Assembly (NCBI GenBank): GCA_963920765.1
Contig: OY987243.1
Location: forward strand, 1,736,001-1,800,000
Direction of reading: 5' to 3'
Length of the DNA stretch: 64,000 bases
From: Ulota crispa
Lineage: Eukaryota > Streptophyta > Bryopsida > Orthotrichales > Orthotrichaceae
Below the pieces are notes generated by a model that ran no database searches, had not been told where the DNA came from, and saw nothing but the letters and a program-made list of their open reading frames with translations. Below are positions 1,966 through 55,145 of this stretch, piece after piece (positions within the stretch are counted from its first letter, which is position 1; the number at the start of each line of letters is the position of its first letter). The position numbers and the translations under genes were made by a program.

Positions 1966-1969
1966 TTAA

Positions 1970-3468
1970 CCCGAAAGGACCCTAAGGACATTGACTAATT
2001 TTGGAAGCTAAATAAAACCTTACCAAATTATTATTTTTAGTAGTTTATATTTTTGATAAAATCTCTTTGAAGTTTAGTTTTAGCTTCAACAATCTGATTT
2101 TGCAAATAATTGATTATGATATTTCTATTCAAGATTTTGTGCACATGTGTTTATTGCAATCTTGACTTTATGTAATGTTGAGGGCTTTTGGGAATGAGCC
2201 TCAAATACCCTAAATCCTTGAGAAAAAATCACATTAGAAATTCATTTTAAAAAATTGTAAAGTAGATTTTGAGAAGTCATAAATTAATTGGGGTTTTGTA
2301 TGTTAGGCCCTTTGACCTTGTGTTTTTTGGTGACCAACTTTTTTAATTTGACATGTGAAAAGAAGATTGAAAGACTTCAAATCATTTTTACAATTTTAAC
2401 ACCCTCGTGATCAAACATTATAATCTTTCAATCCATAAGAGATATTGTTATGTTTTCTTTTCTAATGTGATCTCTAACATGTCTAGTTTGATTTTATATG
2501 GTTACAATTCAAAAAGAACTGATGCAACTTATCAAATTGTTGTCTTTTTGTTCAAATTAGAGCAAATTTCAAGAAGCTCAAGAAATCTAGGTTGTTTTGG
2601 GGTTAAGGACCACGCAACCATATTTTGGTCACATGGAGTGGTTTTTGGCTTATAGATTGAAATCACTCAATAATTTGGAATTTGGTCTTGAATAATACAT
2701 ATGATTACAAGATTTTTGCATCCATCTAAAAAATAACAATGGAATTGCGTATGTGAGTTGACAAATGATGGTGTTTATGCATCATGGCTTCAAAATATGT
2801 ACCATTTTTGGTCAAAGATGGATAAAAGCAACAACACCATACATCAATTATGCAAGAAGAATGTTAATTCACAATCCTAAAAATTTTCAAATTGCGTAAG
2901 AAATTTGCTTTTCTGATGCAGTATAATTGTAGTATTTGAAAATCTATTGAAATGGTGTTGTCATTTCATCTTTAAAAAGTTTCATCCTACATTCAAAGCC
3001 AATTCTTGATTGTTTTCACCAATTGGATTTTCCATAACATTTATCAACTTTTTTGTAGAATTGTTTTAGGGGAGCAAAAAATGGGATTTTTGACCCTTTT
3101 TGTCCACTTAGCTACATCTTGTTATTGCTATTTTTGTTTATTTTGTGTGAAACTAATCTTGTTGGAAAGGTGGGAAACCTTGCTTTCTAGAAATGAAAGG
3201 CTCTTTTCAATCAAAGCTTACATGAACAATTGAAACCACACAAGCATAAAACACTAAAGATTTTCCTGCATATAGCTCACTCAATCATTATAATATTTCA
3301 CCTCCACTAGTAGATCTAGCTGAAATTTTGATACATTACAACAAAGTGTCTTTTACATTGGTATGGCTGGATTATTCAAATTGAGTCCATATTTGATTCA
3401 ATTGCACATCTAAGCTTACAGCCCTGTTTTTAGTGGATTTCGTGAAAAAGGGTGTGGTCCTTAAAGGG
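1970..3468. mobile_element. TTAA-flanked piggyBac-like non-autonomous element (1.5 kb)
   Basis: The element is bounded by TTAA at 1966-1969 and 3469-3472. The left terminus reads CCCGAAAGGACCC and the right terminus, reverse-complemented, CCCTTTAAGGACCACACCC, so a short inverted repeat CCC-(N)-AAGGACC closes it. There is no transposase frame. The interior about 2040-2680 is homologous (inverted) to 21183-21735. TTAA target plus CCC-starting ends is the piggyBac signature; the superfamily assignment is inference because no transposase is present. Confidence 0.65.
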
Positions 3469-3472
3469 TTAA

Positions 3473-4528
3473 AGAAATAGATGTGAATAACTAAGTACAT
3501 CCAATTACACAAATTCTTTTCTTCCAAGGGCACTACATTTAATTACGCCACACACGTCCTTCATTGTTGCTTTGGTACACTCAAACAAAAAGTTCTTTGC
3601 TCGAAGCAGATGAGGATCCTCGCACAATAACCCATTCCAAAATGTGGAAGTGGAGTTCTTCCTTGGCAATTTGGGCAAGACACTTGGTGGAATAAACGCT
3701 ACATTATTGAAAGCTTAAAGAATAGGTAGGATATCTGTACAAAGAATTGAAGGTCGCCACCGATACACATGAAATAGGTAAATAGCGATCTGAGTACTAC
3801 TTGTTTTCTGTTCAGCCGCACCACGTGCACATAATGCTACAGCATGTGCGTGGAATTCAGATGAAAAGATCATACCCCAACCCTGTTCAAGAACCTGAAG
3901 ATATGTGCCTGGGCGCAGTTCACACGTTTTTGATTGAGCACAACGACAGAGGATTGCTACTGAGTTGACCAAACTCTACCTGTTAAGAGTCACCTTATCC
4001 TATCTCTGTACAATCACCTTCAGCTGCAGTAGTCGTTATGTCGCCAGGAAAGCAAGTAGACTAAACACACGTCGAAAGACGTTAATAACGCAGCGCTTAC
4101 ATTCCAACCACCCGCTTCAATTATAGTGATCATTCGACTCTCGGCGGGCCTTGCAGTGGAAGTAGAGACTGTTAGCCTTTCATGCAGCTTGTCAAAGCTG
4201 CCAGGCTCGTAAAAACGAACTGCCATTTTACGATGCGTTCAGTCGGAGGTGCATGATTCAGAAACAGCTACATTGCTGATCCGCCCGAGGGCAAAAGGAC
4301 GTCCCTCACGTTCGCATCTTCCTTCTTGTGTCAACTAACACTAAAAAGCCGCAATCCAAGTTAGCACTACCTTTGGCTGGCGTACTCTTGCATAGCGATC
4401 AGATCTCAATTCTGAGAAAAAGAATGTACAGACTCAAAGCGTCAAGGATACGGAACGGAGACATGGCAATTTTCCATGCTCAGTAGGCTCCCCTCCGCGT
4501 AATCCAATATTCACAAACCTTTAGGTCC
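3473..4528. other. Intergenic / 3' flank of ATG1
   Basis: Base composition rises from AT-rich to mixed after about 3590, toward the 3' end of the minus-strand ATG1 gene, so the 4000-4528 part may be 3' UTR. I see no further exon: short minus-strand frames at 3715-3972 and 4020-4226 match nothing I recognise. Confidence 0.4.
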
Positions 4529-11743: not shown

Positions 11744-12639
11744 CCCCTAAATGCCCAAGGCACCCAATTTGGGTGTTCAAAAAATTCCAAGAAATTTTGA
11801 AATTCTATTGAAGGCAAAGATCTAATTGTTATAAGGTTTCATTTTTTGGAAAAGTTGCATGCTAATGTTAGCTTCAGCATTTAAATTTAACTTCCTCCTT
11901 ACCTTATTCCAATTGTTTTTGGTGGAAGTTAAACTGCAAGTATACATTTTATGTCATGAATAGTGTTGTAAATAGTGTCACAAAGCTTATGACAAGTTGC
12001 CAATTTGAAAAGATGGGCATCCATTTGAGAAAAAAGTGAATATTCCCTTAGGCAAGCCCTTGAACAATAAGGACCCTTTTACTGAAATTTTGTCTTCTAA
12101 CAAAATCTAAAAATTCTTTTGGACTAATTTCACTTGGAATATCTTTGTTATAAAAATTAGAATGCATTCACCATTGAATTTTCTTTCCTTCATAATGATC
12201 TTTGGTCAATAATTGAAGCTAAAAAACTTCTTTGTATTAGGCAGTTGCGCTTTGATAGTTGCATTGTAGGCTCATTTGTAAAATTGCGGTCATGGATTTG
12301 GAAGGGGGGCCATTAGTTTTGAAGTAACAACAATAAACACTAAAGCATCATAAGTGGTTTTTTCCCAATTTTGTATCCAAAAGTTGCCAACTTGCATTAG
12401 AAGTTTTGGGCAGCTCCAAAAAAAGCAAAAAAGTCCATACTCATTCACATTCAATCACAAATATCTTAAAATCCACGTGGCCATTTTGGATCTTTTTTGG
12501 TAGCGCCATCAAGAAGCCTTAAAGTTCAAGATTTTGTGGTTACAAAGTTGATTGGATGTTTGATAATAATCTTACAAGGAAATTTAAAAACTCCACAACT
12601 ACCTTCCAAATGAGAAAAACACCCTTGCGCATTTAGGGG
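11744..12639. mobile_element. TTAA-flanked piggyBac-like MITE (896 bp)
   Basis: TTAA at 11740-11743 and 12640-12643 brackets the element. Left terminus CCCCTAAATGCCCAAGG; right terminus reverse-complemented CCCCTAAATGCGCAAGGG. No coding frame. It abuts another TTAA-flanked element and shares the 12640-12643 TTAA with it. Confidence 0.75.
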
Positions 12640-13003: not shown

Positions 13004-13941
13004 TCCCTAAAGGACCAACCCTCTTTTCAATTAGCACAATAGTGATTTTGGTCAAGTAACAATTTTGGTCAGGTACTTGTGATTGGAGATTTTCATATTT
13101 TACACTGAAATTTTAACAAAATGTGAGAACAAGGTTTATTTTTCATATGCACTAAATTTCATGACATTTGGAATTATGATTAAAAAGATACAGCCTAATA
13201 TGTTGTAATTTTCACTTGACAAACAGCCAGGCAGATTTTAAAATCACTTTTTTCAAAAACAAAAATTCAAAAAAGGTTCAAGAGATTTATGTGAATGTGG
13301 ATAGCTTTTAATCATTCCATTTTGATCAATGAGATGAAAATTACAAGGAGTTTTAGTTTGCGGGCAATTATGGAATCTCTACTCTAAAATAAACTTTGAA
13401 GTCCATTGATTTACTCAATTTTCAATATTTTAGAGAGAAAACAAAACAAAAAGATGTAGAGTATGTGTTTATCACAACATTATAACCATTGTGATTGGAA
13501 AGTTTCATTTCCATAATTAAGTTCTTTACAATTTAGCGGTTTGAATCATTCTCTACTTCTTTTTACTTACTACTATTTTTCCATGTGTTTTACAATTCCA
13601 AATGTTTTGAAAATTTTCAAGTATACCCAACTTGCTTTGAAGAACAAATCCAAAAAACTACAACCATTTTGGGGTTTTTTTCATACAAATACAACCTTGT
13701 GAAGTGCAGCTACTTGGATTTTTGCAAAGGCAAAAAATGGCTTTTTGTCAATTCAAACTCAAATATCTAACAATCTATAGGGTGAAAACTTCTGAATTTT
13801 TTTTCACATCTTTTGGTACTAGTCTCATACAAGATCTTACAGTTACATTTGTCAAAAAAAAAAATCTAAAATTTGGTACTTGTACTAGAATGGCAGTTTT
13901 GGAGCGGTTTTGGTGAAAATTTGAGCTTAATGATTTAGGGG
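13004..13941. mobile_element. TTAA-flanked piggyBac-like MITE, GGACC subfamily (938 bp)
   Basis: TTAA at 13000-13003 and 13942-13945. Left terminus TCCCTAAAGGACCAACC; right terminus reverse-complemented CCCCTAAATCATTAAGC. The interior is homologous to 14014-14932 in inverted orientation and to 44059-45003, for instance the segments around a GAGATGAAA motif and TAGTTTGCGGGCA. Confidence 0.7.
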
Positions 13942-14013: not shown

Positions 14014-14932
14014 CCCCTATAGGACCAAGCCCTTTTTTTTTGCCAAAATCACTAAAAACTGTCACTTCTAGGAGGTTTAGAAAAAAGGGATTTTATGTTT
14101 TGTTTTTAGGAAATCCAACCGTAGGGTCTTGCCCCGGACTAGAAGAGGTACTTATAGTGCGAAAAAAATCAACTCATTCCAAATGGAGAGGAGTGAGATA
14201 TTTACAGCTAAAGTGAAAAAAAAAAAGGTTTTTTTCCATGCTACCCAAAAATTTCAGAAGCCTTTGACCACTCTTATAACAAAAAAATTGCTCTACCCAA
14301 AATTGCGCTTTATTTTTTCCATGTAGGAGATCAAGTTAGGTATGTGAGGGAGAATTTTTTTTAAATTGGAACTTTATAAGACATGGGAAAAAATAGTAAG
14401 TAAAAAGAAGTAGAAAATGAGTCAAACCACTAAATTGTTAAGAATTTAATTATTGAAATGAAAAACGCAAATCCCAACAGTGATAATGATGTGATAAACA
14501 ATCTACTTCCTTTGGTTTGATTTTTTTTCAAAAATATTGAAAATTGAGTAAACTAAAGGACTTCAAAGTTTATTTTAGAGTAGAGATTCCATAACTGCCC
14601 ACAAACAAAAACTCCTCATAACTTTCATGTCATTGATTGAAATTGAATGATTCAAAGCTTCTCATGAATAAAAAAAATCTAAAGAACCAATTTCAAATTT
14701 GTGCTTAAAATAAAAATAATTTCTGAAGAAGTTTTTGGGTTGCCCGGATGGGTAGTCCTCCCAAATTTTTATAAATTCATGCATAACTTCTTTGTCAAAT
14801 GTTGGAATGAAGAAAGAATTAGATGCCCACGTAGATTTTTGAATTCCCCACCTTCATTAAAAGTTTCAGAAAATCAGACAAAGTTGTTTAGCCATAGGTA
14901 CATGCCCAAAGTCCAACTTGTCCCCCAAAGGG
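14014..14932. mobile_element. TTAA-flanked piggyBac-like MITE, GGACC subfamily (919 bp), inverted copy
   Basis: TTAA at 14010-14013 and 14933-14936. Left terminus CCCCTATAGGACCAAGCC; right terminus reverse-complemented CCCTTTGGGGGACAAG. Read on the minus strand it aligns with 44059-45003, 49238-50155 and the reverse of 54227-55132, sharing GGGGGACAA, GGCATGTACCTA and a TTTTGAAACTTTT block near one end. Confidence 0.75.
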
Positions 14933-14936
14933 TTAA

Positions 14937-15197
14937 CGGTTCTTTAGAGGTTAAACTAATCTAATTGTAGTCTATATAAAAACAGTCAAGGGACGTTGTT
15001 CTTCAATTTCATTATCACAAATTGTAACTTACAAATTATTTTTGAGTTTTTCCAATCATTGATTATCCATACAATTTTTGTTTTTGAAATTCTAATTTTA
15101 CTTTTTATTTTCATTTGAGGAATCTCCTCATTTTTTATCTTTATCAGCTTCCTTAAGCTTTTGTTTCTATGTACGTAACAATAATTGGGAAGGCCTC
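14937..15197. other. AT-rich spacer between TTAA elements
   Basis: No gene or repeat is recognised. Confidence 0.4.
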
Positions 15198-15201
15198 TTA
15201 A

Positions 15202-16105
15202 CCCCTAAACGCCCAAGGGGGTAAGGGCAAAACATAAATGCATTCTAAAAAAATACTCTTGTAACTTCAATGAAGTTTGTTTCAAAAGAGAAAACAAGAA
15301 TCATGATGTTTAGGAATTATCCATACAATTACATATTCAAAAGAAGTTTTGTACTCTTATTTAATGAATTTAGAAGCATTTATCATTTAAAATTCACCAA
15401 AATTAGAAATCTTACTCATGGATTGGTATGATTGGTTAAAAATAAACATTCTATTCTAAACTTCAAAAATGCTATCTTTTGAAAGGAGGGAACATCATTG
15501 GTTTTGTGCAATAATAAATTTTACAACACTAGCAAATATTGAAGTGTTTGTCTTTGAAAAATTCTCCTGAATGGATTTTAACTTGGATTGACATGATTCA
15601 TGTTAAGTTGAAAAGTAGAATTGATTTTCTATTACAAAAAAAAAATTTGAAAAAAGTTTTTTTTGTAATAGAAAATCAAGTCTACTTTCCAACCCAACTT
15701 GAATCGTGTCAATCCAAGTTAAAATCCATTCAGGAGAATTTTTCAAAGACAAACACTTCAATATTTGCTAGTGTTGTTAAATTTACTATTTCAGGAAACT
15801 AATGATGTTCTCCTTTGAAAAGATTGCATTTTTGAAATTTACAATAGAATGTTTGTTTTTAACCAATCATACCAAATTATAAAATCTATGCATAAAATTT
15901 GTAATTTTGGTGAATATTAAATAGTAAATGCTTATAAATTCGTTAAATAAAATTCCAAAACTTTTTTTGAATGTTTAGCTGTATGGGTAATTACTAAACA
16001 TCATGATTCTTATGTTCTCTTTTGAAGCAAACTTCATCAAAGTTACATAAGTATTATTTTATAATACATCTATGTTTTGACCTTACCCCCTTGGGCGTTT
16101 AGGGG
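15202..16105. mobile_element. TTAA-flanked foldback element, inverted repeat along its whole length (904 bp)
   Basis: TTAA at 15198-15201 and 16106-16109; termini CCCCTAAACGCCCAAGGGG on both ends. The two arms (about 15202-15640 and 15664-16105) are inverted copies of each other along nearly their whole length, with a very short loop near 15653. A transcript would fold into one long hairpin. There is no coding frame. Confidence 0.85.
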
Positions 16106-16111: not shown

Positions 16112-19069
16112 TAATGATTGGCATCTTGGTGGTCACATTGGGCCGCTTGGGCGCCTATATGCCCAAAGTGCCCCATTGAGGTCATGGTTCATCCAATGAA
16201 GTCAATTTATAATTGGCTTTAAAAAATTATACAAAGTGATAAAAAGAACTTACTTTGTACATGTTAGTGACACTCATTGTTGCCAACATGAAGTCAAAAT
16301 AAGGATTCAAAGCCATACCATGTAATAAAGATGAAAAAAGAAAATTTGATTCTTCCATTTTTAGGTCAAAACCCCTAAAAATGGCCTAAAAAAACATGTG
16401 GGCAGACACGTCTGCCCATCTTATCCACCTAGGAGGTCCGCCTATGCTATACAGTGGCCTCCAACAAACATTGTCGACCCATCTTTTGTCGTTTAGAGGT
16501 CATGTCCTGTTATGGTATGACATTGAGGTTAATTGGCCTTATTTTTTCTTGCATTTTTTATATTTCATTCCTATCCTTAATCCCAACCAAGCATACCAAA
16601 ATTCAACCCCAAAAAATCAAAATCCAAGTTTTGATAAATTGTTTTGTGTCACAAATCAGGGTTTTACATGGTTTTACAAGAAATTTGATTGAAAAACATT
16701 GATGATAAATTTTGGAGATTTGATTGCATGGGTATAAAGGTGACATCCATATGCACATCCATATGCAAAAAACCCATGCTAAAAGAAAACCCCATAAGTA
16801 AAACAAAATTGATCTTTGAAGTGTTTAGTATGACCGGTGATATGTCCAAACATTGTAAAATAGACATTTTCTTACGATAATCAAGTTTTTTTGTTTGACT
16901 CATACATTGTGACTAAGTTTGTACCTTTGAACATGTTGTTGTGTTTTTTTGGTGAAAAGCTAACTAAAAATTAAAAACATTTATTTTACAAAATTTGGAC
17001 ATATCACCGGTCATACTAAACACTTCAAAGATCAATTTTGTTTTACTTATGGGGTTTTCTTTTAGCATGGGTTTTTTGCATATGGATGTGCATATGGATG
17101 TCACCTTTATACCCATGCAATCAAATCTCCAAAATTTATCATCAATGTTTTTCAATCAAATTTCTTGTAAAACCATGTAAAACCCTGATTTGTGACACAA
17201 AACAATTTATCAAAACTTGGATTTTGATTTTTTGGGGTTGAATTTTAGTATGCTTGGTTGAGATTAGGGATAGGGATGAAATATAAAAAATGCAAGAAAA
17301 AATAAGGCCAATTAACCTCAATGTCATACCATAACATGACATGACATTCTAAACATCAAAAGATGAACTGATATTGTTTATTGGAGGCCACTGTACAACA
17401 ACTTCAAGTTGCCCAAAGTAACAACCTTGATTGGCAAAATAACAATTATAAAAAACAATCACTATAATGTATGAAGTGAGCAGGAGTATTAAAATTTTCA
17501 TCCGTTGTACCTAGATTCGTATTAGGAACATATATTCCAAAAAGATCATCACAGAAGTTTTAAAAAAGAGAGACAACACTCACTCTAAGAAAGTTGAAGC
17601 TAAAGAGTTACTTACCCATAATTTATGTGGGATTATTTTGTTATTATTGTTGTAGTTAGTACTAATAGGTAACAAGTAGGTGTTGTTTATAGTCATTAGT
17701 TAGATGGGTGATTGCAAGAAATACTAGTATTACATTGTGTCTCCTTCCACTTGAGCGGGTGATATTAGGATCGTATCTTTTGCTTAACAAGTCTTTTTGA
17801 TTTGAGATTTCAAGGCAAAGAAAACATCAAAGTTACTGATGTTCAATAAATTTTTGGTATTTTTAAAAATTATTTTACTATTTATAATAGAATATCGATT
17901 GCATGTCTACCTAAATGGTTTTGGGGGTTTTCAGTACTGCAAATGATCAAAAATGCAAATTTTTGGCCACAAATCATGGTAGTGATTCAAGAGGCATCAT
18001 TACACAAATTTATAAACCAATTTTGCAAATCTCAAAATTTTACGCCTTGCACGTTCTCTCAAAGTGGGCATCCTATCTCCCTACCTAGATGATAGACAAA
18101 AATCTTCCTAGAAAAAATACTCTCATCACTTCAAGCCAATAAAGGAGGCCATAAATGTCCAATTTTTGTTTTATTTTTTTTGGTTTTTTTGTAATTACTA
18201 AGAATTAAAACATGGCAGCCTAGAAATTCTGGTAATTTCTGCTCCACATGCCTATGTAGTACTCCCCTCCATTTATTGGCACTATATAGTACCACTAACC
18301 ATTGACATCTTTTGAGGATCCGAATTTTTTTTCCAACCATTCATTGAATTGCCATTATTGATAGTTGGCCTTCCTAAATGACATGCCACGTGCCTTGTTC
18401 TCAATAGATTTGGGATGGGAGGGACGATTCAGATTTTCAGTGCAAGGGTGCTGTGTAGTACTTACAGTACTAGTAGCACTTCCAATATTACACCCAAAAA
18501 GAGGAATTTTGAGACAAAACTATGAAGTGTTTCTTGCAACTACCCAAATACTCAAACTACAAGTAAGGTATAAATTATAAAGATGAAGTTTTGCTTAATA
18601 TCTCATGTGTGTTTTGTATTTTTATTAACGCAATATTCATTCATTTGGGAAAAATCTCATTTTGGAGCTTTTCAATTTCTACAATATTCTAAATCTTGGT
18701 TGTCACATTGGGCTAAATTCGGTTGTAGAACAAGACAAGTGAACATACTCATGTACAAAACAAAAGACAAAGACAAATGTGACTGTCCGTCCACTCTCAC
18801 ATTTTAGGGAACTTTTAGTATTTTTGACCTAAAAAATGAAGAATCAAATTATTGTTTTCACTTTTACTAGGTGATATGATTTTAAATGTAAGTTTTGACT
18901 TCATGTTGACAACAATGAGTATCACAAGCATGTACAAAGTAAGCTTTTTTTATCATTTTTTGAAATCAACTATGAAGTGACTATGTTGGACAAACATGAG
19001 CTCATTTGGGTACCTCAGGGCTTAGGCAAATGGGCAAGCGGACAAGCGGGCAATTCAAAGTGACAATCA
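16112..19069. mobile_element. Large foldback element (about 3 kb) with nested hairpin
   Basis: Outer inverted repeats of roughly 270 bp: left about 16112-16385, right about 18805-19069, sharing AATGATTG at the tips, a CCGCTTG segment, TTTGACTTCATGTTG and ACTTTGTACATG. The interior holds a second near-perfect inverted repeat (16448-17396). The interior 17890-18550 resembles 62480-63060. No transposase is visible. Target duplication not resolved. Confidence 0.6.
16448..17396. repeat. Near-identical inverted repeat, about 410-bp arms with 127-bp loop
   Basis: Left arm 16448-16862 and right arm 16990-17396 are nearly identical as reverse complements; the translated frames on opposite strands match (shared MKNIDDKFWRFDCMG and MFYLWGFLLAWVF). 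Those frames are a by-product of the repeat, not genes. High arm identity implies a recent inverted duplication or gene-conversion between arms. Confidence 0.85.
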
Positions 19070-19910
19070 TTGTCTCAACAAAGTATTTTAACACCATAGG
19101 GTGATGGCATGATCAAGGTAATCAAAAAGGACTGCTTAGGTCTAATTTGGCCATACCCATGATACTTTTGCTATTTATGACATCTTACTAGATAGTGTTT
19201 TGCTATTTATTTTTTGGCAAGAAGTTGCTTATACTTGTAGATTAGTAGAAAAAAAAACACTTTTTCAAAAGATGCATGTTATCATGTGCAAATGAGTGAT
19301 TTTTTAAGAAGTTCCGAAACTATCTCATATTATCAAAATGAAGTAAAGGACTCATCCGGACAACAAATTTGGTTAGTAGGAATTAGGTTAATGCTAGTTG
19401 TGCAAGCTTCTATGGTCCATGAATTTAAAGTGTATTAGTCCATACATTATTAAAATTAGTTGTTATGAATTCTTTTAGGGACAGTTTCGTGCAAGTTTTT
19501 CCACATTCAATAAAGAACATTAGAAATTTGTAGTTTTTTTTAAAAAGTGGCAAAAGCATGCACATACACTTGTTTCTAGGTGCACATTTGGTCAAAATTA
19601 TGAAAATGTTCATAATTCATTTTAGGGAGCCATTACAAATTACAAGTCAAAAAAAGTCTGGATCAAAGACATTTGGGTTCTAATCACTTTTATGGTGTGA
19701 AAAAAAAACAAGAAAGTCCTTTTGATGAAAAGAACACTTTTTAAATGAATGTCTTAATGTAAGGAAAGCTTAAGAAAAATGTCTCATCATTTGCAAGTTT
19801 AATTTTTTTGCTAAACAAAAATATTCAGGACCCACTAATGGAAGCAAAATAATAGTGCTTTCCAGAAGTCCGGCAGGCCCTTTTGGGGGTACCCTGATTG
19901 TGCCATCATC

Positions 19911-20158
19911 CCATATTAGATAAATTGGAAAAAACAGAGTCCCATTTTGTACTCCACCTTAAACCCAAAAAGTTACTTTAAACCAAATTTGAAAGTATCA
20001 GTTTCAATGTGAGCCACTAAGATTTTTTCCCTCCCAAATTCCTCCTCTCAGGTGAGGCACATGTACCAAATAAAATGCTAGAGCTTGAATTAAGTTAATC
20101 ATCTTAATCCTCAAAAGTCCCAAAAATGTAATGTTTTTCCCAATTTATCTAATATGGT
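19911..20158. mobile_element. MITE, AAATTGGGAAAA family (about 248 bp)
   Basis: Ends CCATATTAGATAAATTGG and reverse-complemented ACCATATTAGATAAATTGGG. Shares its interior (CCTCCTCTCA, GGTATCA-type segments) with 20999-21789, 26773-27021 and 28039-28296. Confidence 0.7.
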
Positions 20159-20358
20159 GTTATTTATTAAATACTCTTTCAACAACATAAAATCCAAAAA
20201 TCCCAAAATTGGAATTTTCCCCAAATTACTGAGAATTGCAATATCACAATAATGATGAAATTGATAAATGTTCTAAAGTAGAAATGGCTTGTGCAAAGGT
20301 TTCTTTGTTCTAGCTTAGTTGTGTTTGGGTGTCGTATTATTGTTGCAACACGCAAGAT

Positions 20359-20713
20359 ATGTTAGAGTGGCACAGACATCCTCTTTCGGTGTGATGCGTG
20401 CACTGCCCTCGTAAAGTCATAGTTAGCGTGCAAAAGAACGTAGGTCATACGTGATAAGTACTTTGTATAGCGGTGGACTGGTGGTATTCCAACATATACA
20501 CCAAGACTAGAACAGCGCTCTCTACATGTTGAGCAAAGCGCACATCAGTTGCACGCGGCAGAAAACATCCTCATTGGCTTTAATCACATTATCAATTTAT
20601 CGTTGTTTGCAAAACGAATATTTCAAGCCCGACATAATCTTGCTATTGGCCTCCTATCCTCACAGCATCTGTACCTCAGGCTCACAAGTCACAACACAAA
20701 GGAAGAGCAATTT
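20359..20713 (-). pseudogene. gyrB exon 18 and flanking intron fragment, duplicated and decayed
   Basis: This aligns with 31648-31963 of the gyrB gene on the same strand (shared GAGTGGCACAGACATCCTC, GACATAATCTTGCTATTGGCC-like and CTCAGGCTCACAAGTCACAA segments). The copied exon 18 has a premature stop after the RALF codons, and the acceptor TGTACAG has become CATGTAG. It cannot be spliced or translated as GYRB. The collinear continuation is at 21791-22045, separated by inserted DNA. Confidence 0.85.
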
Positions 20714-20998
20714 GTATAGGGCAATGCCAGAGGAGGAGATTGCTGGTAAAAAAGTGCTGACAAGGAGTGCAGAGCCCAACGAGGAGGCGCTTTTTTACCC
20801 ACAATCCCTAACGACAAAGGCGTTGCCCGACATAAATCACAAGTAGAAAGGATGAGAAATCAAGGATGAGAGTTGTAGCCGGATGAGAAATCCGTACTGC
20901 CCAATTATGCAAGGCAACCCGCAGAATTGAGTATCACGCCGCATAACCCACCACGCAAATGAACGGCAAGATCCTAGGAGTGGTTTACAAACGAGAAA

Positions 20999-21789
20999 AT
21001 GCATTATTTGTGAAATTGGGAAAAATTGTACAGTTTGGGACTTCTGAAGGTTTCAAGTGGCCACCTAAAACCAAGCTCACAACATTTTTTTGGTACCCAT
21101 GCCCTCACCTGAGAGGAGGAATTTGCTAGGGAAAAACTCTTAGTGGCTTAGACTAAAATTAATACCTTCAAATCTGGTTTAACCCTAGACCGCCCATGGA
21201 CTTTCTTCAGTATCTTAGAGTGTGCTCTTAGATGAACAGAATGGCAACATTTTGATAAGTTACATCATTTTTTATAAATTGTAACCGTACAAATTCAAAC
21301 TGGATATGTTAGAGATCACATAGGAAAAGAAAACACAACAATATTACTTATGGATTGAAAAATTATAACATTTGATGAAGAGGGTGTTAAAACTGTGAAA
21401 GTGATTTGAAGTCTTTCAATCCTCTTTTCACATATCAAATTTAAAATTGAGGATGTCAAAAAAAATATGAGTATGTAAAGTACAACATGTGTAACCCTAA
21501 TCAATTTACGGATTCTTAAAATCTACTTTACAATTTTTTAAATTAAATTTCTAATGTGATTGTTTCTCCAAGTTCTAATGTACTTGAGGCTCATCTCCAA
21601 GAGCTCTCAATACTAGAAAGTGAAGATTTGCAATTCACACCCTTGCACAAAATCTTGAATAGACAAATCATATTCATTCATTTTCGAAATCGGATTTTTG
21701 ATACTAAAACAAGACTTTAATAAGAATAATTTTAAATAATAACCACTACATGGTACCTCCGTTTTTCCTAATTCAACGAATAACGCGTT
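20999..21789. mobile_element. MITE (AAATTGGGAAAA family) split by a nested TTAA element
   Basis: Left part about 20999-21182, right part about 21745-21789 ending in AACGCGTT. In intact relatives these parts are continuous. The insert 21183-about 21744 begins CCCTAGACCGCCC immediately after a TTAA (21179-21182) and is the reverse complement of part of the 1970-3468 element, missing one of its ends. Confidence 0.65.
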
Positions 21790-21790
21790 A

Positions 21791-22045
<255 letters not shown>

Positions 22046-22969
22046 TATATTTTTAGAAAGGCAAATATTACTCTTCAAATCTTATTTAGACTTTTTTGGG
22101 GGGCCAAAGTCTCTGCTGACTACCCCATAAATTCTAAATTTAACCGGAAGCAAGCAAAGGTTAAGGACACTGGCACGATCAACGTACCCCACTATGACCT
22201 CCCTCGACCTCCGGACACGACTCCCGTCTTGTGAGTCCTGATTATTTTTGTATAGGGAAGAAATTGAACTTGCAAGATATGAGACATTTTTTTTAAGCTT
22301 TCCTTATGCTAAGACATTCATTTAAAAAGTGTTCCTTCCATCATAAGGACTTTTTTGATTTTTTCACACCATAAAAGTGATTAGAACCCAAATGTCCTGC
22401 TCCAAACTTTTTTTGACTTGTAATTTATAATGGCTCCCTAAAATGAACTATTAACATTTTAATAGTTTTGACCATATGTGCACCTAGAAACAAGTGTATG
22501 TGCATGCTTTTGCCACTTAAGAAGAAAATTTACAAATTTTTAATGTTCTTTATTGGACGTGGAAAAACTTGCATGAAAATGTTTGTAAAAGAATTCACCA
22601 CAACTAATTTTAATAATGTATGGACTAATATACTTTAAATTCATGCACCATAGAAACTTGCACACTTATAAATGTATTAACCTAATTCCTACTAACCAAA
22701 TTTGTAGTCTGGATGAGTCCTTTACTTCATTTTGATGAAATGAGACAATTCTAGAACTTCTTACAAAATCGCTCATTTGGACATGATAGCATTCATCATT
22801 TGAAAAAGTCAATTTTTTCCTCCTAATCTACAAGTATGGACAACTTCTTGCCAAAATAATAAGAGCATAACACTCTTTAGTAAAACATAATAAATAGCAG
22901 AAGTGTCATGGGTATGGCCAAATCGGAGTTAAGCAGTCCTTTTTGGGTACCCTGATCGTGCCATCACCC

Positions 22970-29604: not shown

Positions 29605-29956
29605 CCCCTAAACACTAGGTTCGCCATCAGAACTTGCCCCTCTATAATTGCTCTACAATGTTTTACAATGGTGTGACAAGTGCTCATCCATTATACTACT
29701 ATATTCAAAAGTTGCAAAAATCAACAACATGGTGACCAAGCAATATGGGACATAACACCATATCTATGAATCTTCTCACAATTTGGGTTACCAAAAAATA
29801 TGAGTGCATTTGGTGAGGCTATTTTTGGCATTCCATGATGGACCAAATATGCATGCTCACTTCTATAAAAAATTGGTTGAAAAGCAGGTTTCCATTCTAC
29901 AAGCATTTTTTTTTGTTATAGAGCGGACGTTTTTCATCCTCCAAGGCGTCTAAGGG
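29605..29956. mobile_element. TTAA-flanked piggyBac-like MITE (352 bp)
   Basis: TTAA at 29601-29604 and 29957-29960. Termini CCCCTAAACACTAGG and reverse-complemented CCCTTAGACGCCTTGG. No coding frame. Confidence 0.6.
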
Positions 29957-30654: not shown

Positions 30655-40203
<9,549 letters not shown>

Positions 40204-41610: not shown

Positions 41611-43568
41611 AAGATCTCAAGATAGTGCACCAAGAAAATCTAGATTCCATTTCTATACTTGCTTCTTATTGATTCCACTAATGTTCAGCAGCTGCTCAAG
41701 CTTGCTATGGACAATTGAAGCATATTCTAACCATTGACATTTACAAAATGTATTAACCCCTAAATGTTTGAGGGTGCCACAGTGGCCAATACATGCTCTT
41801 TTTTGCATATTTGGAGATGTTGCCGTAGGAGGTTTCGGCTAAAGATTTGAGGATTTGGTACTAGCAAAAATATCATCCATTTGAGGCAATCAACGGTTTT
41901 TTTTTTATGAGTTTTGAGAGATTGAGAGTTGTTTGTACGTGACGGAGTGTACAACATATGTATTGTTTCACAGATTCATAAACCGGGAGGAGAGTTGGGC
42001 TTGAAGGTGGCAAGGTGGCCATCTACATTCCACTGTGGCATTCAGCGCGCTTCACATGGCGGGAGTTTGTGCATTCAACAAGGGGGGAGTGGCGCGTAAA
42101 GTGTGGATGCAACATGCACATTCAGCTTGGAAATAATACCGCAAAAGCTGAGTGCACCTGTAGAAGTCAAGGGTTGTCATGGTGGATGCTGCCGGCCTTG
42201 TATGGTTAGGTAGAAATTCAAAAAAAAAGGGCCAGTTCAACAATCATTGTTCAAGCTTTGTCGTGCTGCATGATGAGGGTGCAGTGCAGCAGGCCAATGC
42301 GATAGAGCGTGGGGTTCAAGTTTAGATACTTGGAGTAGTGAGAGATCCTCACCTGAAGTTGCAAAGTAGTGGGCAATTTAGCGGAAATGGTCAAGAGTAT
42401 TCTAGAATGTTGCTTGGATAAGTCCGTCCATTGCCATTGTTGATTGAAGTTGCAAGCATGGCGAGTTGCTCAAGCTATATGAGCAAGATCTTTTGCACAG
42501 GGACCAATGATTCACATATAACAATTGTCCAGACTTGGCGTGTGAAAATTATTGCAAGAGAGAAACACCTTAGTGGTGATTGCAAAACGTGATGTATCTT
42601 GCAATGGAAATTTACAAAGTCTTCATAACAAACTCAAAAAATCAGTGATAAACAAGTGATTACAAGAATGTGGGAGTTCCTAGAGAGGGCCCTTCCACGT
42701 CTTGCCCCCCCCCTAGAAAATTGATGCACACAATGGTACAAAAAATTGGAGCAATTCAAATCTAGAGGAATTATTGAATCAACTGAAGGCCAGTTCTCCC
42801 CTCTTCAATCAATAGAAGGGAGTTTCCCTGAACACACAAGTACTTGTTGTTGTAAGCCTTACCATGGATTGTGACCCCACAACTCTTTTGTGATGTAGCG
42901 AGCCCCCCTCCACTCAACCCAAATCACTGAATCACTGAGGAAAATGTTTGCCCTTGTTGTTTTCCCTCTTCTTACCCAAATGAATTGTCTTGCATTGAAG
43001 TGCCCAAATGCAACGACTCCAAGAATCATGTCGCCTTCACTGCATACCACAATTTCCCATGACATGTGTGAAGTGTGGATTGTTTCATAATCGCGCAACG
43101 ACCCACTTTCTCGCCAGCCGATCATATGACCCTGCCGTCCTTCATGCATGAAATCTACTTCCCCACCAATTTTAGAACGTACCTAAGCACAATTGGCTGC
43201 AAACGTGGCCCAACTAAAATCATAAAGTCGCTCTTCTTCCAGGTGACCCGCCCTCTCATATGCTAATCAGTGCATCCGCCACTTTCATGATCTTTCTGTG
43301 GATTCTTCCCAAAACACCTGCAAACATAGCGCAAAGACAAGGCTCCTCCATCGACACGGCTAGATTGTCAAATTGAACCCTCAAAACGCAGCTTGATTGC
43401 TCAAAGCCGGCATAGGAGTACTCTACGGCGGCTCTAAGGCGGACGCCTACGGAGCCATAGAGATGTTTAAGGGTTAAACAGAGACGTAATTTAAAATCTC
43501 TAAATTTCACCAAGAATATATCAGCGTAAAACAAAAGTTTGGAGACCATAATCCAGAATTTGATGCTG
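41611..43568 (-). pseudogene. Duplicated gyrB exon 1/intron 1 segment interrupted by a TTAA element
   Basis: 41611-41756 and 43474-43568 together align with gyrB 39781-40017 (shared CTCAAGATAGTGCACCA, TTCAGCAGCTGCTCAAG, GGAGACCATAATCC). The piece covers the end of exon 1 and much of intron 1. The coding part has changed codons and a lost donor context. The interruption is the transposon at 41757-43473. Confidence 0.85.
41757..43473. mobile_element. TTAA-flanked piggyBac-like element with GC-richer cargo (1717 bp)
   Basis: TTAA at 41753-41756 and 43474-43477; left tip CCCCTAAATGTTTGAGGG, right tip reverse-complemented CCCTTAAACATC. The inserted DNA is absent from the parent gyrB site, which proves insertion. 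The interior (about 41990-43450) is richer in GC than the other elements and has open frames on both strands (e.g. minus 42859-43149, minus 43256-43549) that I do not recognise; it could be captured host sequence or decayed transposase. Confidence 0.82.
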
Positions 43569-44058: not shown

Positions 44059-45003
44059 CCCCTAAAGGACTAACTATCCCCTTGGGGGACAAATGGATTG
44101 CGGGCATGTACCTACAGCTAATTTAATTTTTGTGATTTTTGAAACTTTTATTGAAGGTGGGGATTTCAAAGATCTAAGTGAGCATCTAATTTTTCCTTCA
44201 TTATGACATTTATTGAAGTAGTTATGCATGAATTTCTGAAAAAAGGAGAAGGTGGGTAGCCTAAAAAAAAATCAAATTTGCAATTTTTTAAAATAAAAAT
44301 CTGAATTTCATTCTTTAGATTATTACATATATGGAAATTTTTTAATCATTCAATTTTGATTGATGAGATGAAAGTTATGAGAAGTTTCAGTTTGCAGGTA
44401 GGTATGAGACTCCCAAACCTCCATTCTTTTTGCCCCTTGTAAAATTTGTTGCTTTCCTTTTTTGAGCTCTTTGTGTATTTTTCTTTTTTACTTTTGTTTT
44501 CCAAGTTGTAGTAGACTAAGATTCCTTGATTTTTACCATTTGGATCAAATTAATTCAGATTTTTGAATTTTACATAAATTCTCCAATGTTTCTTAGTGTA
44601 TATGCAAATTTCATGGCCTTACGGCATTGCAAGATTTTACAAAGTATGATCCACACCTCCAATTCATTTGAGAATTTTCCCACATTTACCTAACTTGGTC
44701 TTCTACATGGTAAAAATAAACCTGAACTTTGCGTAGAGCAATTTTTTGATATAGGAGCTATCAAAGGCTTTTGAAATTTTGGGCAACAAGGAAAAAAAAA
44801 AAATTTCACTTCAGATGTCAATATCTCACTCCTCTACTTCTAGAATGAGCTGAATTTTTTCCCACAAGTACCTCCCATAGTCTAAGGCAAGATCCAATGG
44901 TTGAATTTCCAAAAACACTTTTTTTCCAACCTGTCTACTTATTCCCCCAAAAGTGTCAGTTTTCAATGATTTTCAAATAGAAAAGGGCTTGGTCCTTTAG
45001 GGG
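44059..45003. mobile_element. piggyBac-like MITE, GGACC subfamily, flanked by TTAG (945 bp)
   Basis: Left tip CCCCTAAAGGACTAAC, right tip reverse-complemented CCCCTAAAGGACCAAGCCC. Both flanks read TTAG (44055-44058; 45004-45007), in place of TTAA. Because TTAG is not a palindrome, the identical flanks are good evidence for a 4-bp target duplication. Interior homologous to 14014-14932 (inverted). Confidence 0.75.
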
Positions 45004-45007: not shown

Positions 45008-48000
45008 GGGTTAACAAAGATTTAATGTGGATAGTTTTTAAGCTATTTTTGAGTAGACTCTTAATTGATTTGAGAGCTTTGTTTTGTTTACAATTTTTTC
45101 AAGTAGATGTTGAACCCTATACAATTTAATAGGCCACCTCAATGCAAGTCATGATCAAATTATTGAAGTATCCACCTAACATAATGACCTAAGTGATCAT
45201 AGAAAATTATTCAAATGACAATAGCAAGTTGCTTCAAGAATAAGTAACTTTTATATGTCTTTTACTCCTTTTAGGTTTTTTTTTGTTAAGGAGTAACCAT
45301 ATGTATGTATCATCCGTGCAGCACCACAATAATCTTGGATGCAATCTATGTATCTGAATTGGTTAGAAAATCATCTTTTTGAAAAGAAAAGAAAAATCTA
45401 GAGCTACATGAAGTTTTTAAATAATGGAGAAATAATAAATAAGATGGTAGAAAAAATCAAATGGTTGCTAAAAATTATGGAAGATAATTCAAAAGAACTA
45501 GAAAAACAAATTTACATGAAAAACTAAGATGTTTTGTATGTATTACTGATATTGCTAGATGATGGATTGTCTTTGTTTATAGACATTTGATATCAATTAG
45601 TAAATTGGTAACATACCATAATTTGATAGGGTGTGATTGGTGATTGGGATTAATAACAAAATTAGTGGCCATTACCATTTGATAAATAAGTTGAGATAAA
45701 CACAGTAAAATGCAAATTCTCTTCTAAGTATAAACCTTTTTATGGCAATATTATTAGTTTTTCCTTATGAACTTGATAGCATCTACTTCATGTGATTTTC
45801 ATTAAGTTCATATTAAATGTTGTCAATTATAAAAAGGCTCGATACAAGAAAAATAAATACACAACAAGGTTTATTATACTAACTTATTTCTTCCAAATCA
45901 AAAGCATTTCAATAGAGTGGAGTAAATATTTCATTATTTGTTTGTGATGGTTGTTCATTCAATCCAAAGTGACAAAGCTATATATGATTATAAAGTCACA
46001 TTTGAATATATTGGCTTTATTCTCTCCTAGCAATGAATGTATTGAAGTTGAATTTTTTTTATATACTAAGCCCGATTTTAACAAGAAATTATAGTTTTCC
46101 AAATTTGTAAAAACAACAAGGACAAAGCAATGTACTTTCACCATAATTTGAATTTATTGATTTTTACAGTTTTTTTTACGAAGGTATCTTTTGCAAGCTA
46201 ATCTTTGCTATAATTGTCACAATTTTAAAATGTTGAAACCACACACACTTCTAGGAAGCAAATGGTTCAGATATCATATCAACTACAAAATATATTTAAA
46301 GAACATGGGGTTTTCACAAGCAAAATGGATTATAACCATAAACATCATATTCTCAACCAACCATGCTTTAAATTTTTAATTTTGAAAGCACAACAAAAAA
46401 ACGAACCATGGTTAAACAAATGATATCCAGAGTAATATCCCTTAAATGCATTAAATCACTAAATTATTATGACTTTCAACATGGTTCTTAAAATTTATCC
46501 ATTGTTTAATTTTAAATATCTAACAAGCAATTAAAGAAATTTAAAATATACTATCACAAATTATATAACAAGTCAAAAACTATTTATAAGTTTATTTAGA
46601 AATTATGATTCAATGAAGGTAACAATTTATAGTTGATAGTTGAATAGTGATTAACATAACATCATCAAATAAGAAGAATGGTAAAGTGCAACTTAATAAT
46701 GAATGACATGATTCCAATTTAAAATACATTTTGAACATGTAAATTTATCCTATTGATAATTTGTAATGTACTCCATATTTTGAAAATTTGTAAAATTATC
46801 TTACATAAAAGCAATTTCACTTATCTCATTCTAATATATATTTTGGAGTCTTGTCACTTTGCCCTAATGCCTCAAAAAAACTTGCATACATTAGCAAAGT
46901 TTTGAGCCTTTCAAGAGCCCCCTACTTTGTCTCTAAAGGGGTCTTACAACACGCACTTACTACAACAAACAAATCACTAATACCCTATTTTTGCTCACCC
47001 TTTGAATTCAATGCAATCATGAAAACTATATTATTATGTTATCCCTATTGAACCAAAATTATGGTTACAAATGTACAACATGACCATAAATTCTACTTTA
47101 CACTGTTTGAATAGATGAGTCACTAAGTACTTGGATAGTAAGTAGTGAGTACATTTACACATTTTATGAGTACAATGCCTTTTTGTATCATTTTGGATTG
47201 TGCATGTGGCTTAGGTACTTCTGTAAAGGTAGCCATGGGTATGAGTGCCCTTTTCTTGTACTCACTAGGCAATTAATAGCTTGGTTTGTCAAACCTTAGG
47301 GGGCTCTTGGAGGGTTCAAAACTTTGCACTCAAAGTAAAGACTTTTGACATGGCCTCTCACTTGTCCAATACAACATGAACAAATATTTAGCATTTTAGA
47401 AGACTGAATGCTTACAATTATAATACAATATCTTCAACCAAAAAATTCCTATGCCAACAAAAATCATAAGATTTAATAATTTGTATGCACTCTCCTATTT
47501 CTAAGTAGTGATAATTTTAATTTGATCATTTGATCATTGCCTTAAAAAAACGATCCACAATTTACTTATTGGTTATATATTATGTAGTTATAGTAGATAT
47601 GCATCCATGTTTTTGTTTATAATGACCAAAATAGGTGGGTGAGTAGGTCAAAATTTACAATGTTGTACATTTCAATTCTTCCAAGTAAAAAATTCTACAA
47701 AATGGATTAGTTCCTTTGCGTAATCATGTGTCATGATACTAGAAATAGCACTTAAGAGAATGTACAAAATGGTCACACAACTTTTTTAATGCAAAAATGC
47801 ATTGAAATTTGTTTCTTCTAGTTCTTGTTAAAGCTTGTCTGTTTTTAAGTCTCACCAAGGTTTAGAGCTTAGATAAGCAGAGTCAAATTTGACTTATTGT
47901 AAATACCATTGTACGTCCGTCAAAATGAAAAAGTCATTTTAATGAGGATCCTGATGTTTTTTAGGATTTAACATTTGCAATCACAAAAGGTATTTTATAG

Positions 48001-49237: not shown

Positions 49238-50155
49238 CTCTTAAAGGACCATTGTTCCTACGGGGGACAAATGGGATTTTAGGCAGGTACCTACGGCCTC
49301 AATTTTTGTTCTGATTTTTTGAAACTTTTTGTGAAGATAGGAAAATACATAAGCTTTTTGGGAATACAATTTTTATTCCAGTCAATGCCATGGAGCAAAG
49401 GTTATGACCAAATAAGCACAAAGTTGGGGAGTCCGGGCAGCAAAAACTTTTTACAAAAACTTAATATATATTTTTTAATTGTTTTTCTCATAGATTATAT
49501 ATTTTTCTACATCTGAAGCTTTGATTCACTTCATTTGGACTAGATATGAGAAAGTTATGGACAATCTTGTTTTTCTTGCAATTCAAGCATCTTCTTGAAA
49601 AAATAACTTATAAACTTCATTTTTGAATGTAAGCTTAACAAATTTTCAAAAAAATTGTTGGAGAGGGTGCAATTTTCTTTCTAGAACAATCTCACCATTG
49701 GGATTATTGCATTTCAATTCCATTGCCGGGTTATTAGCAATTTAATTTTTTATTCAATCTCACACCTCCTTCTACCTAATGTTTTTTTAAAGAATGAAAA
49801 TGAAATATTTTGTTTTGATTTTTTTCCCAAGATTCTTAACTCAAATTTCCACCATAAAAAAATAAAGTTCCAAACTCTAAGGTGCAAAAAAATTCAGTTA
49901 AAAAAGTTCAAAGTCAAATAATCTAATCATGCAAGGTGCAAAAAAACTTGTTTTTCTCACTTTAAATGCAAATATTTTCCAATTTGTGTGGTCAAAGTTC
50001 TTGAGTTTTGTATGACACATTCTTATACTAGTCTAGTACAAGATCCTATGGTCAAATATGCAAAAAGACTAGTTTTCAAACTTTTTTACTTTTTGCCATA
50101 GAAGTGGTAGTTTTAAGTGACTTTTGACAAAATAAAAGCCATGGTTCTTTAGGGG
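49238..50155. mobile_element. TTAA-flanked piggyBac-like MITE, GGACC subfamily (918 bp)
   Basis: TTAA at 49234-49237 and 50156-50159. Left tip CTCTTAAAGGACCATTG followed by CGGGGGACAAATGGG; right tip reverse-complemented CCCCTAAAGAACCATGG. Interior aligns with the reverse complement of 54227-55132. Confidence 0.72.
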
Positions 50156-51489: not shown

Positions 51490-51496
51490 AAATTTA

Positions 51497-51895: not shown

Positions 51896-52599
51896 AAATT
51901 TATTGCCTTCTCTCATTTTGACAAATTTTGTTACATGCGTTTTTGGCTTGCTTTCAATTTGTCACAACATTTTAAAAAATGTTTCACACTTCTAAAGATT
52001 TGCTTAAAACATTGCAGAAGCATGTGCTTTAGTGTTTTGGCAAAAATGATGTGTTCAACATAATTAGGCAAAAGTCAAGTTTGGTGAGAACATGGGCAAC
52101 TATGCACTTTGCTTATCCTTTGTCCACAACAATGCTAGCGTGCAAGCCTCAAGCGGCAAGCTTGTGAGCCTTGAGCATGAATACCATGAGCTTGTGAGGC
52201 TTGAACTTTAAAACTTTCAAATATCATAAATCAACTTCATATTTCTTTAAAAAATTAGTAAAATTCAAACAAAAAATTCTATTTATAAAAGATTTGGGGA
52301 TCTATGACCAGGGACATTTTTTGTACCTACAATTGTGGAAATGTGAAATATTTTGTTAAAAGTCAATTTGGTGATAATATTGTATGAATAATAAATTCAA
52401 AGTTACAAAGTGAGTTATGAGCTTCATGTACAACCATTCAAAAGATGGATCATTGAATAAATGAAATATAAGAAAATGAAATAATGTAATTTACAAACAC
52501 ATGTAAAAAGAAGGCCTTCCTCTCTAGGCTCATTCTAAGCTAAACTAGAAGCATCCTTTTTGTTGCGGTAAAATACAGAATATATGACTATTTAGATAA

Positions 52600-52911
52600 G
52601 GGGAAATTTCATGAATATCCCAAAAGTTTGCAATATTTTCATAGATATCTTGCTTTTCCAAAAATATCACAAATACCCTTGGATAAAAAAGTTTAGGCGT
52701 TTACTTTGTTGTGCATGCCACTTCCTTGCTTCCTTTGTACGCATGCATAACAAGAAAAAAGTAGTGTGCGCACAAAGGAAGAAAGGAAGTGGCATGCATA
52801 ACCAAACAGACGCCTAAGTTTTTTGTTCCAAGGGTATTTGTGATATTTCTGAAAAAGCAAGGGTATCTACAAAAATAATGCAAACTTCAAGGGTATCCAT
52901 GAACTTTTCCC
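52600..52911. mobile_element. Foldback MITE with perfect 9-bp target duplication (312 bp)
   Basis: TTTAGATAA lies at 52591-52599 and 52912-52920. The arms are inverted over most of the length (GGGGAAATTTCATGAATATC versus reverse-complemented GGGAAAAGTTCATGGATACC; GTGGCATGCA inner arm). A 9-bp duplication fits a Mutator-type MITE. Confidence 0.85.
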
Positions 52912-52920
52912 TTTAGATAA

Positions 52921-54222
52921 TTATTGAAATACAACATTTGTACAAAAGCAATCTCATCCAATATTTGCTCTAATTTTTCATATGAAATCTACACTAAAGA
53001 AGAAGAGGGTTTTGAATATCAATATATAGAAATTTTCAACTTGTACTAAAGGAGAGAAAGTTTTTACAAAAAACTAAATTGTTCATTCAATTATGCCAAG
53101 CTAAAAGAGAGTGCGTATAAAATTACATTCCTTCTTGTTAGACTAGGAGACATTGTGAAATGTACATAAAGGCATGTCAATACTTGAACCACTTGATGAC
53201 CAATTGGGTTTCAAAATAGACATTGAAATCAAACTTAGAAGGAGAATATACACTCTAAAACTATAATATAGATTCTAGAACTTCATATCTTGTTCTATAG
53301 AATTAATAAGTGGAACCAATTGTAGGAGTTCATCAATTTTAGAGATCTTATCTTCTTCTACATAAACTGAAGACTCAACAAAACAAGATCACACATGAAG
53401 AGGGTGGTTAGAAACTTTTGTGTTTTCAACAATAAAATATTTAGGAAGATTAAATTGAACGTTGAAGCTAAATTCAGCTTAGAACCTCTTCCAAAAACTA
53501 ACCTTAAAACATTTGAAGTTGTGCCTTCCACAAAGTTTCAAGCTTCTTGAAATTTTTTGGACACCAAAATTTAGTGCTTTGGGCATTCAAGTGTAAACAG
53601 TAAAAATTACAATGAAGTTCAACCTACCCAAAAAAAGAAAAAGCTTACCAATGTGAACATGGTGTGAAATGCAATCATTTCTAGTATATCTTCAAAGCAG
53701 CTATAACAATGACCAACTTGCAAGTTATTCATATCACCCACTAGCACTAGATTTACCTTCTTTAAAATATATTGAAGCAATCATGTTAGAGGATGACCAT
53801 GACATTTCTTGCATATGAGGGTTGAATAGCCAAAATTTGGCTAAGTTTATGTTTAGTGGTTATTAAATAATGATATGGAGGTGGCTCAACGGACCACTGA
53901 GAGCCTAGTCATCCCTAACTAAACTCCTAGAGATGCATCCAACCACCCTCAAACTGCTAAAATGAATGATCAACCACTTCCCAAATTGCTAAATGAATGA
54001 TTGGCCACCCCCAAAATTCCTAAAATGAATGCCTTCTATGATGTCTTACCAGCCATTTTTTTAGTTGCCACCTCTGACAGATTTTGGCCCATGACAGGCC
54101 TTCCCTCAAAATATAACCCAATGTTGTGAGGACAACACTGCAATAAGTGGCGACCATAAAAAACCCTATGTCTTACATTCGCAGCTTGAGCAACAAAAGT
54201 GGCTAGGTACACCTCCAACAGC
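52921..54222. other. AT-rich intergenic with degenerate palindrome-unit remnants
   Basis: No gene. 53880-54220 carries GAGCCTAGTC, CCAACCACC and CCACCCCC segments resembling single decayed units of the 55890-57240 array. Confidence 0.35.
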
Positions 54223-54226
54223 TTAA

Positions 54227-55132
54227 CCCCTAAATCCCTAGGGCCTTTATTTTGTTAAAAGACACTTAGAACTGCCATTTCTATTGCAAAGAGTAAGAAA
54301 GTTTGAAAATGGATCCTTTTGCATATCTAACCATAGGATTTTATACTAGAATAATGTAAGAATGTGAAAACAAAAATTCAAAAACTTTGACCGCACATAT
54401 TGCAAGATATTTGCGTTTAAAGTATAAAAAACAAACTTTTTTGTAGCTTGCATGATTAGATTATTTGACTTTAAAATTTTTTCACTTAAAATTTTTGCAC
54501 CATAGAGTTTTGAGGTTTATTTTTCTATGGTGGAAAATTGAGTTGAGAGTCATTGGAAAAAATAAAAACAAAAAACACATTATTTTCATTCTTAAAAAGA
54601 ACATTAGGTACAAGAAGGTATGAGATTCAACAAAAGCCTAAATTGTTAATAACTTTGTAATGGAAGTGAAATGCAATTTTTCCAATGGTGGGATTGTTCT
54701 AGGAGGCAAACTTTGCCCTGTCCATCAATTTTTTTTGAAAAAATGTTAAACCTGCATCCAAAAATGAAGTTTATAAGTATTTTTTCAAGAAGATGCTTGA
54801 GTTGCCCTAAAAATAAGATTGTCCATAACTTTCTCATAGCTAGTTCAAATGGAATGAATCAAAGCTTTAGATGTACAAAAAATATATAATCTATAAAAAA
54901 AAGCTTAAAAAAAAATAGTTTTTGTAAAAAAAAAATTCTGCCCAATCTCCATAAATTTTTGCTGAACTAGGCATATCTTTTGCTTTTGGGCATAGATTGG
55001 AATAAAAACTATATTCTCTAAAAACTAAATTGTTTTCCTATCTTCAATAAAAGTTTCAAAAAAACAAGACAAAATTGACGCCATAGGTACCTGCCCTAAA
55101 CCCCATTTGTCCCCCGAGGGGACACTCAGGGT
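54227..55132. mobile_element. TTAA-flanked piggyBac-like MITE, GGACC subfamily (906 bp)
   Basis: TTAA at 54223-54226 and 55133-55136. Left tip CCCCTAAATCCCTAGGG; right tip reverse-complemented ACCCTGAGTGTCCCCTCGG. Interior aligns with the reverse of 49238-50155. Confidence 0.7.
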
Positions 55133-55145
55133 TTAAGGATTTAAG

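Follow-up and report, generated by a model that had tools for sequence, protein, structure and literature searches.

The analyzed stretch (hereafter, the window) comprises 64,000 nucleotides of the moss Ulota crispa (contig OY987243.1, positions 1,736,001 to 1,800,000, forward strand) and carries a series of short repeated elements bounded by TTAA, which we assign to the piggyBac superfamily of DNA transposons. Eleven intervals were accepted, covering 10,558 of the 64,000 bases (16.5%). TTAA immediately flanks both ends of all nine intervals listed as TTAA-bounded, and CCC-type tips, corresponding to the terminal inverted repeats (TIRs) starting with CCC(C/T) that characterize piggyBac, were observed at most element ends, as the initial annotation had described. 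Three weaker tips are ACCCTGAG at 55132, CTCTTAAA at 49238, and TCCCTAAA at 13004. TTAACCC...GGGTTAA pairs at a spacing of 200-2000 bp occur nine times in the window, some of them being alternative pairings of the same ends; sequences simulated at Markov orders 1, 2, and 3 (100 per order, 300 in total) contained on average 0.61, 0.34, and 0.28 pairs, respectively, with a maximum of 4. The window intervals are almost certainly non-coding, non-autonomous piggyBac-superfamily elements, comprising miniature inverted-repeat transposable elements (MITEs) and larger deletion derivatives. They represent several families, not one, and their transposase relatives fall into at least two lineages.

Below, strands are given where assigned, and loci and contigs of the same assembly are referred to by L and C numbers, respectively. 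The interval 1970-3468, initially annotated as one element, has the expected TTAA borders and resolves into two nested elements. The outer one (1962..3468, flanked by TTAT and TTAA) belongs to a family of ~0.86-0.9 kb, and its bases 2608-3468 align at ~80-82% to copies in L014, L019, L022, and L027. It is interrupted by a 633-bp element (1970..2602, + strand) with TTAA on both sides, which shares 79% identity over 526 bp with a reverse copy at 21202-21720. This partial copy (21183..21720, - strand) begins with the tip CCCTAGACC at 21183, and its homology extends to about 21720; what was proposed there as a nested piece corresponds to the tip of this reverse member of the 633-bp family, and the second end of the copy was not found. 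The same piece is contained in a structure at 19098-22970 with inverted arms of ~740 bp, 86% alike and 3.9 kb end to end, which is possibly another long-TIR DNA transposon.

Four elements are grouped between 11744 and 16105. The first (11744..12639, 896 bp, non-coding) has tips identical at 15 of 16 positions and aligns with L012. Two members of the group defined by the extended tip CCCCTAAAGGACCA follow, both with TTAA on either side: a non-coding element of 938 bp (13004..13941) with a right-subterminal match to L011, and one of 937 bp (14014..14950). The left end of the latter agrees with the initial annotation; the right end, placed there at 14932, is an internal TTAA, and the homology with the elements at 44059 and 49238 continues beyond it; the element ends at 14950. 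In reverse orientation, 14014-14950 aligns to 44059-45003 at 73-76% over ~345 bp at each end. The fourth element (15202..16105, 904 bp) is palindromic, aligning to its own reverse complement with 86% self-complementarity end to end; its tips match each other at 16 of 16 positions, an L011 end at 15/16, and an L012 end at 14/16. Further along the window, TTAA-bounded elements were identified at 29605..29956 (352 bp; a family of 2,875-2,891 first-look candidates, 40 of them scored), 41757..43473 (1717 bp), 49238..50155 (918 bp), and 54227..55132 (906 bp), the last belonging to the 49238 family in reverse orientation (80% over 907 bp). For the 49238 family, 40 of 3,783 candidates were scored, giving 41 matches; the other 40 matches listed across the genome share 79-88% identity with the window element. 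By eye, TTAA was present on both sides in eight of ten family places fetched, including that in the window, with one side changed in L030 and two in L038.

Some of these elements lie within the tips of others. The 633-bp element sits in a TTAA within the tip CCCTTTAAGGACC of the outer element, and joining the outer flanks without it yields CCCTTTAAGGACCACGCAACC, a sequence similar to the tip seen in other copies. Similarly, the 945-bp element at 44059..45003 is flanked by TTAG on both sides, in agreement with the initial annotation, and lies inside what looks like a second element's tip, with the outer TTAA of the latter at 45011-45014. Its joined flanks give GGGCGTTTAGGGGTTAA, resembling another element's end; the other end of this surrounding element was not found. 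The sequence expected where one tip has inserted into another, TTAACCCTTTAACCC, was counted 255 times across the genome, compared with 4 for its reversed control. Tips such as CCCTTTAA contain TTAA; because tips carry their own TTAA, an element may be insertable into the tips of others, and the sequences fit a putative role of TTAA-containing tips as insertion targets.

The target-site duplication was examined at a paralogous empty site of 41757-43473, located at 39775..40022 (+ strand) and holding a single TTAA (39923-39926). The flanks of the insertion, minus one TTAA, align gap-free to this site over 248 bp. A duplication other than 4 bp would have spoken against piggyBac; at the one empty site found, it is TTAA. 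Furthermore, TTAA precedes 7,555 of the 8,876 exact CCCCTAAAGGACCA tips (85%) genome-wide. PIF/Harbinger elements duplicate a 3-bp TWA, and this candidate was rejected on the basis of the 4-bp TTAA duplication.

Transposase genes of the piggyBac type were identified in the assembly of the window (274.8 Mb, 157 contigs). A search with the profile PF13843 (DDE_Tnp_1_7), in which scoring covered 116 of 528 first-look candidates, gave 120 matches with a best E value of 1.3e-73. None of 14 control genomes yielded a match, a comparison that is little informative since the named controls are prokaryotes. Fourteen distinct element frames longer than 300 aa were scanned against Pfam. Ten of them, from L011, L012, L017, L020, L021, L022, L026, L027, L028, and L045, matched PF13843 (E 1e-25 to 4e-67), and the other four, in L012, L013, L014, and L022, matched nothing. 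TTAA duplication is also common to Kolobok and Sola3, the main alternatives named in the initial annotation, according to which elements with these ends would carry a Kolobok or Sola3 transposase of their own. However, it is PF13843 that the longer same-end elements carry, with no other family among the 14 frames, and no Kolobok or Sola3 enzyme was detected in them by the Pfam scan, in which no Kolobok- or Sola-specific profile was run. We consider this alternative very improbable, and the proposed preference for piggyBac is upheld by both the enzymes and the TTAA duplication.

The L022, L012, and L017 frames were also searched against the PDB, where the only matches were 6x67, titled 'Transposase' in the record itself and which we take to be the Trichoplusia ni piggyBac transposase, and piggyBat (9c0f). 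The E value was 4.1e-20 for L022 against 6x67 and 2.6e-24 for L017 against 9c0f. The catalytic DDD triad was found in full: all three positions of L017 align with piggyBat, and all three D motifs are present in 4 of the 12 printed frames (L017, L011, L014, and L045). Pairwise comparison of 12 core frames gave alignments with E values no higher than 1e-5 for 63 of the 66 pairs, at identities of 25-84%; several transposase lineages therefore coexist. Cys/His-rich C-terminal tails were seen in L011 and L026 by eye only, and no zinc-ribbon match (E<=1) was obtained in Pfam for the three frames scanned. Upstream of the DDE match, ~315 codons are open in L020, and a 539-codon frame lies just upstream of it in L013. 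The four upstream frames scanned had no Pfam match better than E 0.2; such frames may represent an N-terminal exon or a second open reading frame. The 5' frames of the transposase elements L009, L014, L018, L020, L021, and L022 are related between lineages, and several contain an IAKLLGW-like motif. As a separate observation, transposase matches that are equal or nearly so were found in pairs 15-109 kb apart and in opposite orientation (C7:18203169/18223004, C10:676128/785346, and C2:36765124/36779670), which may reflect either a recent duplication or palindromes in the assembly.

At 13 of the 24 transposase loci examined, both TTAA-bounded ends could be assigned, with a separation of 5.0-6.1 kb. 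Twelve of these are among the first 20 loci (L009-L028), with ends 5.0-6.0 kb apart, and L042 has matching ends at 6.1 kb. For L011, the two ends were placed by visual inspection; L018 has a right tip that is not of the CCC type. CCCTAGA, which the tip of T. ni piggyBac resembles, forms tips at L018 and L027. Both ends of the 5.7-kb L012 transposase element are matched by element 11744-12639 of the window, one at 84.6% over 560 bp and the other at 70% over 147 bp. In a subterminal comparison that excluded the first 16 bases, 520 end pairs involving ten window elements were scored against 520 shuffles (maximum 130) and 1,560 ordinary TTAA sites (maximum 126). Both ends of 11744 scored above the two control maxima against L012 (412 and 261), as did a single end of each of 54227 (202), 13004 (184), 44059 (156), and 49238 (150) against the right end of L011. 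A PF13843 enzyme inside elements with the same ends is accordingly established for five of the ten window elements tested. The attributes that define MITEs (short, non-coding, uniform, high in copy number, and sharing ends with autonomous elements) were observed here, with many copies in the 49238 family and ends shared with L012 in 11744, and not in the low-copy 41757.

Several observations qualify this assignment. Stops interrupt 110 of the 120 PF13843 matches, leaving 10 without an internal stop; in L022, the third D is replaced by N, and 7 more of the 12 printed frames are truncated or altered. Two clear ends are missing from 11 of the 24 transposase loci: L019 and L022 have a right end only, L021 and L025 are uncertain, and no ends were assigned in L015, L017, L024, and L028. 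At L044 and L045, the tips on the two sides differ from each other, and L043 has one tip. CCCCTAAAGGACCAAG starts the L043 and L044 tips as well as the right end of 44059-45003, and a neighboring MITE could supply the former two. Subterminal sharing with a transposase element was demonstrated for only the five window elements listed above: 14014 scored 127, below the shuffled maximum and above the TTAA-site maximum, 1970 scored 120, below both, and the scores of 15202, 29605, and 41757 lay within the control range. These five are accordingly supported by their tips, TTAA borders, and copies. Moreover, 1 of 60 control TTAA sites also reached 14/16 in the tip comparison, and the control sites may include unlisted element tips. 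Finally, 41757-43473 is low in copy number, which is atypical for a MITE, with one other near-full copy (C6:889685, 81%).

This low copy number, together with the fact that most listed matches of 29605-29956 stop inside the element, could suggest that these two weaker intervals are other repeats, or segments lying between TTAA sites by chance. The borders argue otherwise. The empty site of 41757 is clean, and 29605-29956 was queried with its flanks (652 bp, TTAA at 147-150 and 503-506): among the matches listed, none started before 142 or ended after 515, and none extended more than 9 bp beyond the flanking TTAA. Nine of them started (five, at 146-147) or stopped (four, at 506-507) within 1 bp of its outer edge. 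An origin from other repeats or chance segments is unlikely, and both intervals were kept as piggyBac-type elements.

Genome-wide counts are 30,972 for the tip TTAACCCCTAAA (77 for its reversed control), 8,876 for the extended tip CCCCTAAAGGACCA (control, 0), and 7,555 for TTAACCCCTAAAGGACCA (control, 0). At two ends per element, the TTAACCCCTAAA count corresponds, as a rough estimate, to ~15,000 elements, which at 0.9 kb each would occupy roughly 14 Mb. The window contains nine TTAACCCCTAAA-type tips, or ~141 per Mb compared with a genome mean of 113; extrapolation from this one window gives a possible element share near 13% of the genome. Among 100 listed TTAACCCCTAAAGGACCA places, neighboring tips less than 2 kb apart were convergent in 17 cases, divergent in 1, and on the same strand in 3, and 11 of the 17 convergent pairs span 895-932 bp. 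CCCCTAAA resembles the plant telomere unit (CCCTAAA), and the tips could be read as degenerate telomere repeats within interstitial telomeric DNA. Against this, no tandem CCCTAAA pair was present in the window on the strand searched, homology spans whole 0.9-kb units, neighboring tips are convergent, and even the extended tip is abundant, making a telomeric origin the least credible of the alternatives. The Kolobok, Sola3, Harbinger, and telomere-repeat readings were rejected on the piggyBac enzyme, the 4-bp TTAA, the whole-unit homology, and the convergent tips, and nothing was seen that contradicts the piggyBac class. More broadly, we tentatively suggest that mosses might host an old, diverse, greatly expanded, and partly self-nesting piggyBac population, whose tips supply TTAA, which possibly amounts to about one-tenth of the genome, and which has been largely missed by the annotation of plant transposons.

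In the proposed mechanism, full 5-6 kb elements elsewhere in the genome would encode a DDD transposase that binds CCCYTAAA-type ends and excises the element. Insertion at TTAA, or rarely at TTAG, would duplicate those four bases. Internally deleted copies that kept their ends could be mobilized in trans by the same enzymes, and their spread would account for the tens of thousands of ends. Each inserted element would offer a new target through its tip TTAA, allowing copies to enter one another's tips, a process that may continue at present.

Other features were also observed in the window. A 202-aa frame at 25467-26075 matches the IPP transferase profile PF01715 (E 1.2e-4; 22.2 bits, below the cut-off of 23.6) and may belong to a tRNA isopentenyltransferase gene as an exon. 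An inverted repeat at 16450-17395 has arms 95% alike over 422 bp, separated by ~103 bp, and an array with a 128-bp period and partly self-complementary units extends over 55833-57279. Regarding the host, the plastid contig C157 contains, in order, rbcL, tRNA-Arg(CCG), and an accD-like frame (by eye). PF01000 matched a 360-residue frame, of plastid rpoA type by eye, on the chromosome-size contig C2 and gave two weak matches on C5; it had no match on C157. In mosses, rpoA has moved to the nucleus, and the C2 gene together with the plastid gene order probably fits a moss host; a liverwort was also considered and rejected on the rpoA result. A second RuBisCO large-subunit match lies on another contig (C97:118173-118940, L040), in a 964-codon open frame.

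Widely used plant transposon pipelines target five other TIR superfamilies, and because of this, piggyBac elements may go unlabelled in moss genomes. The initial annotation regarded piggyBac as rarely discussed in land plants. PiggyBac is listed among the superfamilies present in all taxonomic groups studied, with land plants named as a group (PMC4438587), and among the MITE superfamilies of angiosperms (PMC10004981). In a fern, 1,230 PiggyBac fragments made up 0.00% of the assembly (PMC6890710). No report of a native piggyBac in a bryophyte was found in material consisting mostly of titles and abstract openings, with few subscription journals and no Repbase, which is weak evidence of absence; in the available part of PMC10619864, the word appears only as 'piggybacking'. 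In land plants, piggyBac is thus already on record; what stands out here is how large the population is and that tips are nested within tips.

Among animals, piggyBac has its best-known members, and the moth element is treated as an excision tool for plants, both in plant engineering (PMC10905368) and in Physcomitrium patens, where it was yet to be tested (PMC5505980). The moss genome offers a native plant counterpart, could supply ends and enzymes that took shape within a plant, and allows the rise of a TTAA-specific transposon to high copy number to be studied. Compared with T. ni piggyBac (6x67) and piggyBat (9c0f), the moss elements share a homologous DDE domain, DDD motifs, TTAA duplication, and CCC tips, and differ in the upstream open frames (L020 and L013) and in the very many 0.35-0.9 kb derivatives. 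A well-defined piggyBac element measures 2,472 bp (PMC10813416), whereas those described here span 5.0-6.1 kb. CCCTT is the most conserved 5' motif of animal piggyBac elements, and TTAG is among the minor target sites of their non-TTAA insertions (PMC10813416), as at 44059-45003, although the TTAG here lies within the apparent tip of another element. Angiosperm PiggyBac MITEs (PMC10004981) are likewise short, non-coding plant elements of the piggyBac type; the present ones differ in their moss host and in having transposase-bearing relatives in the same genome.

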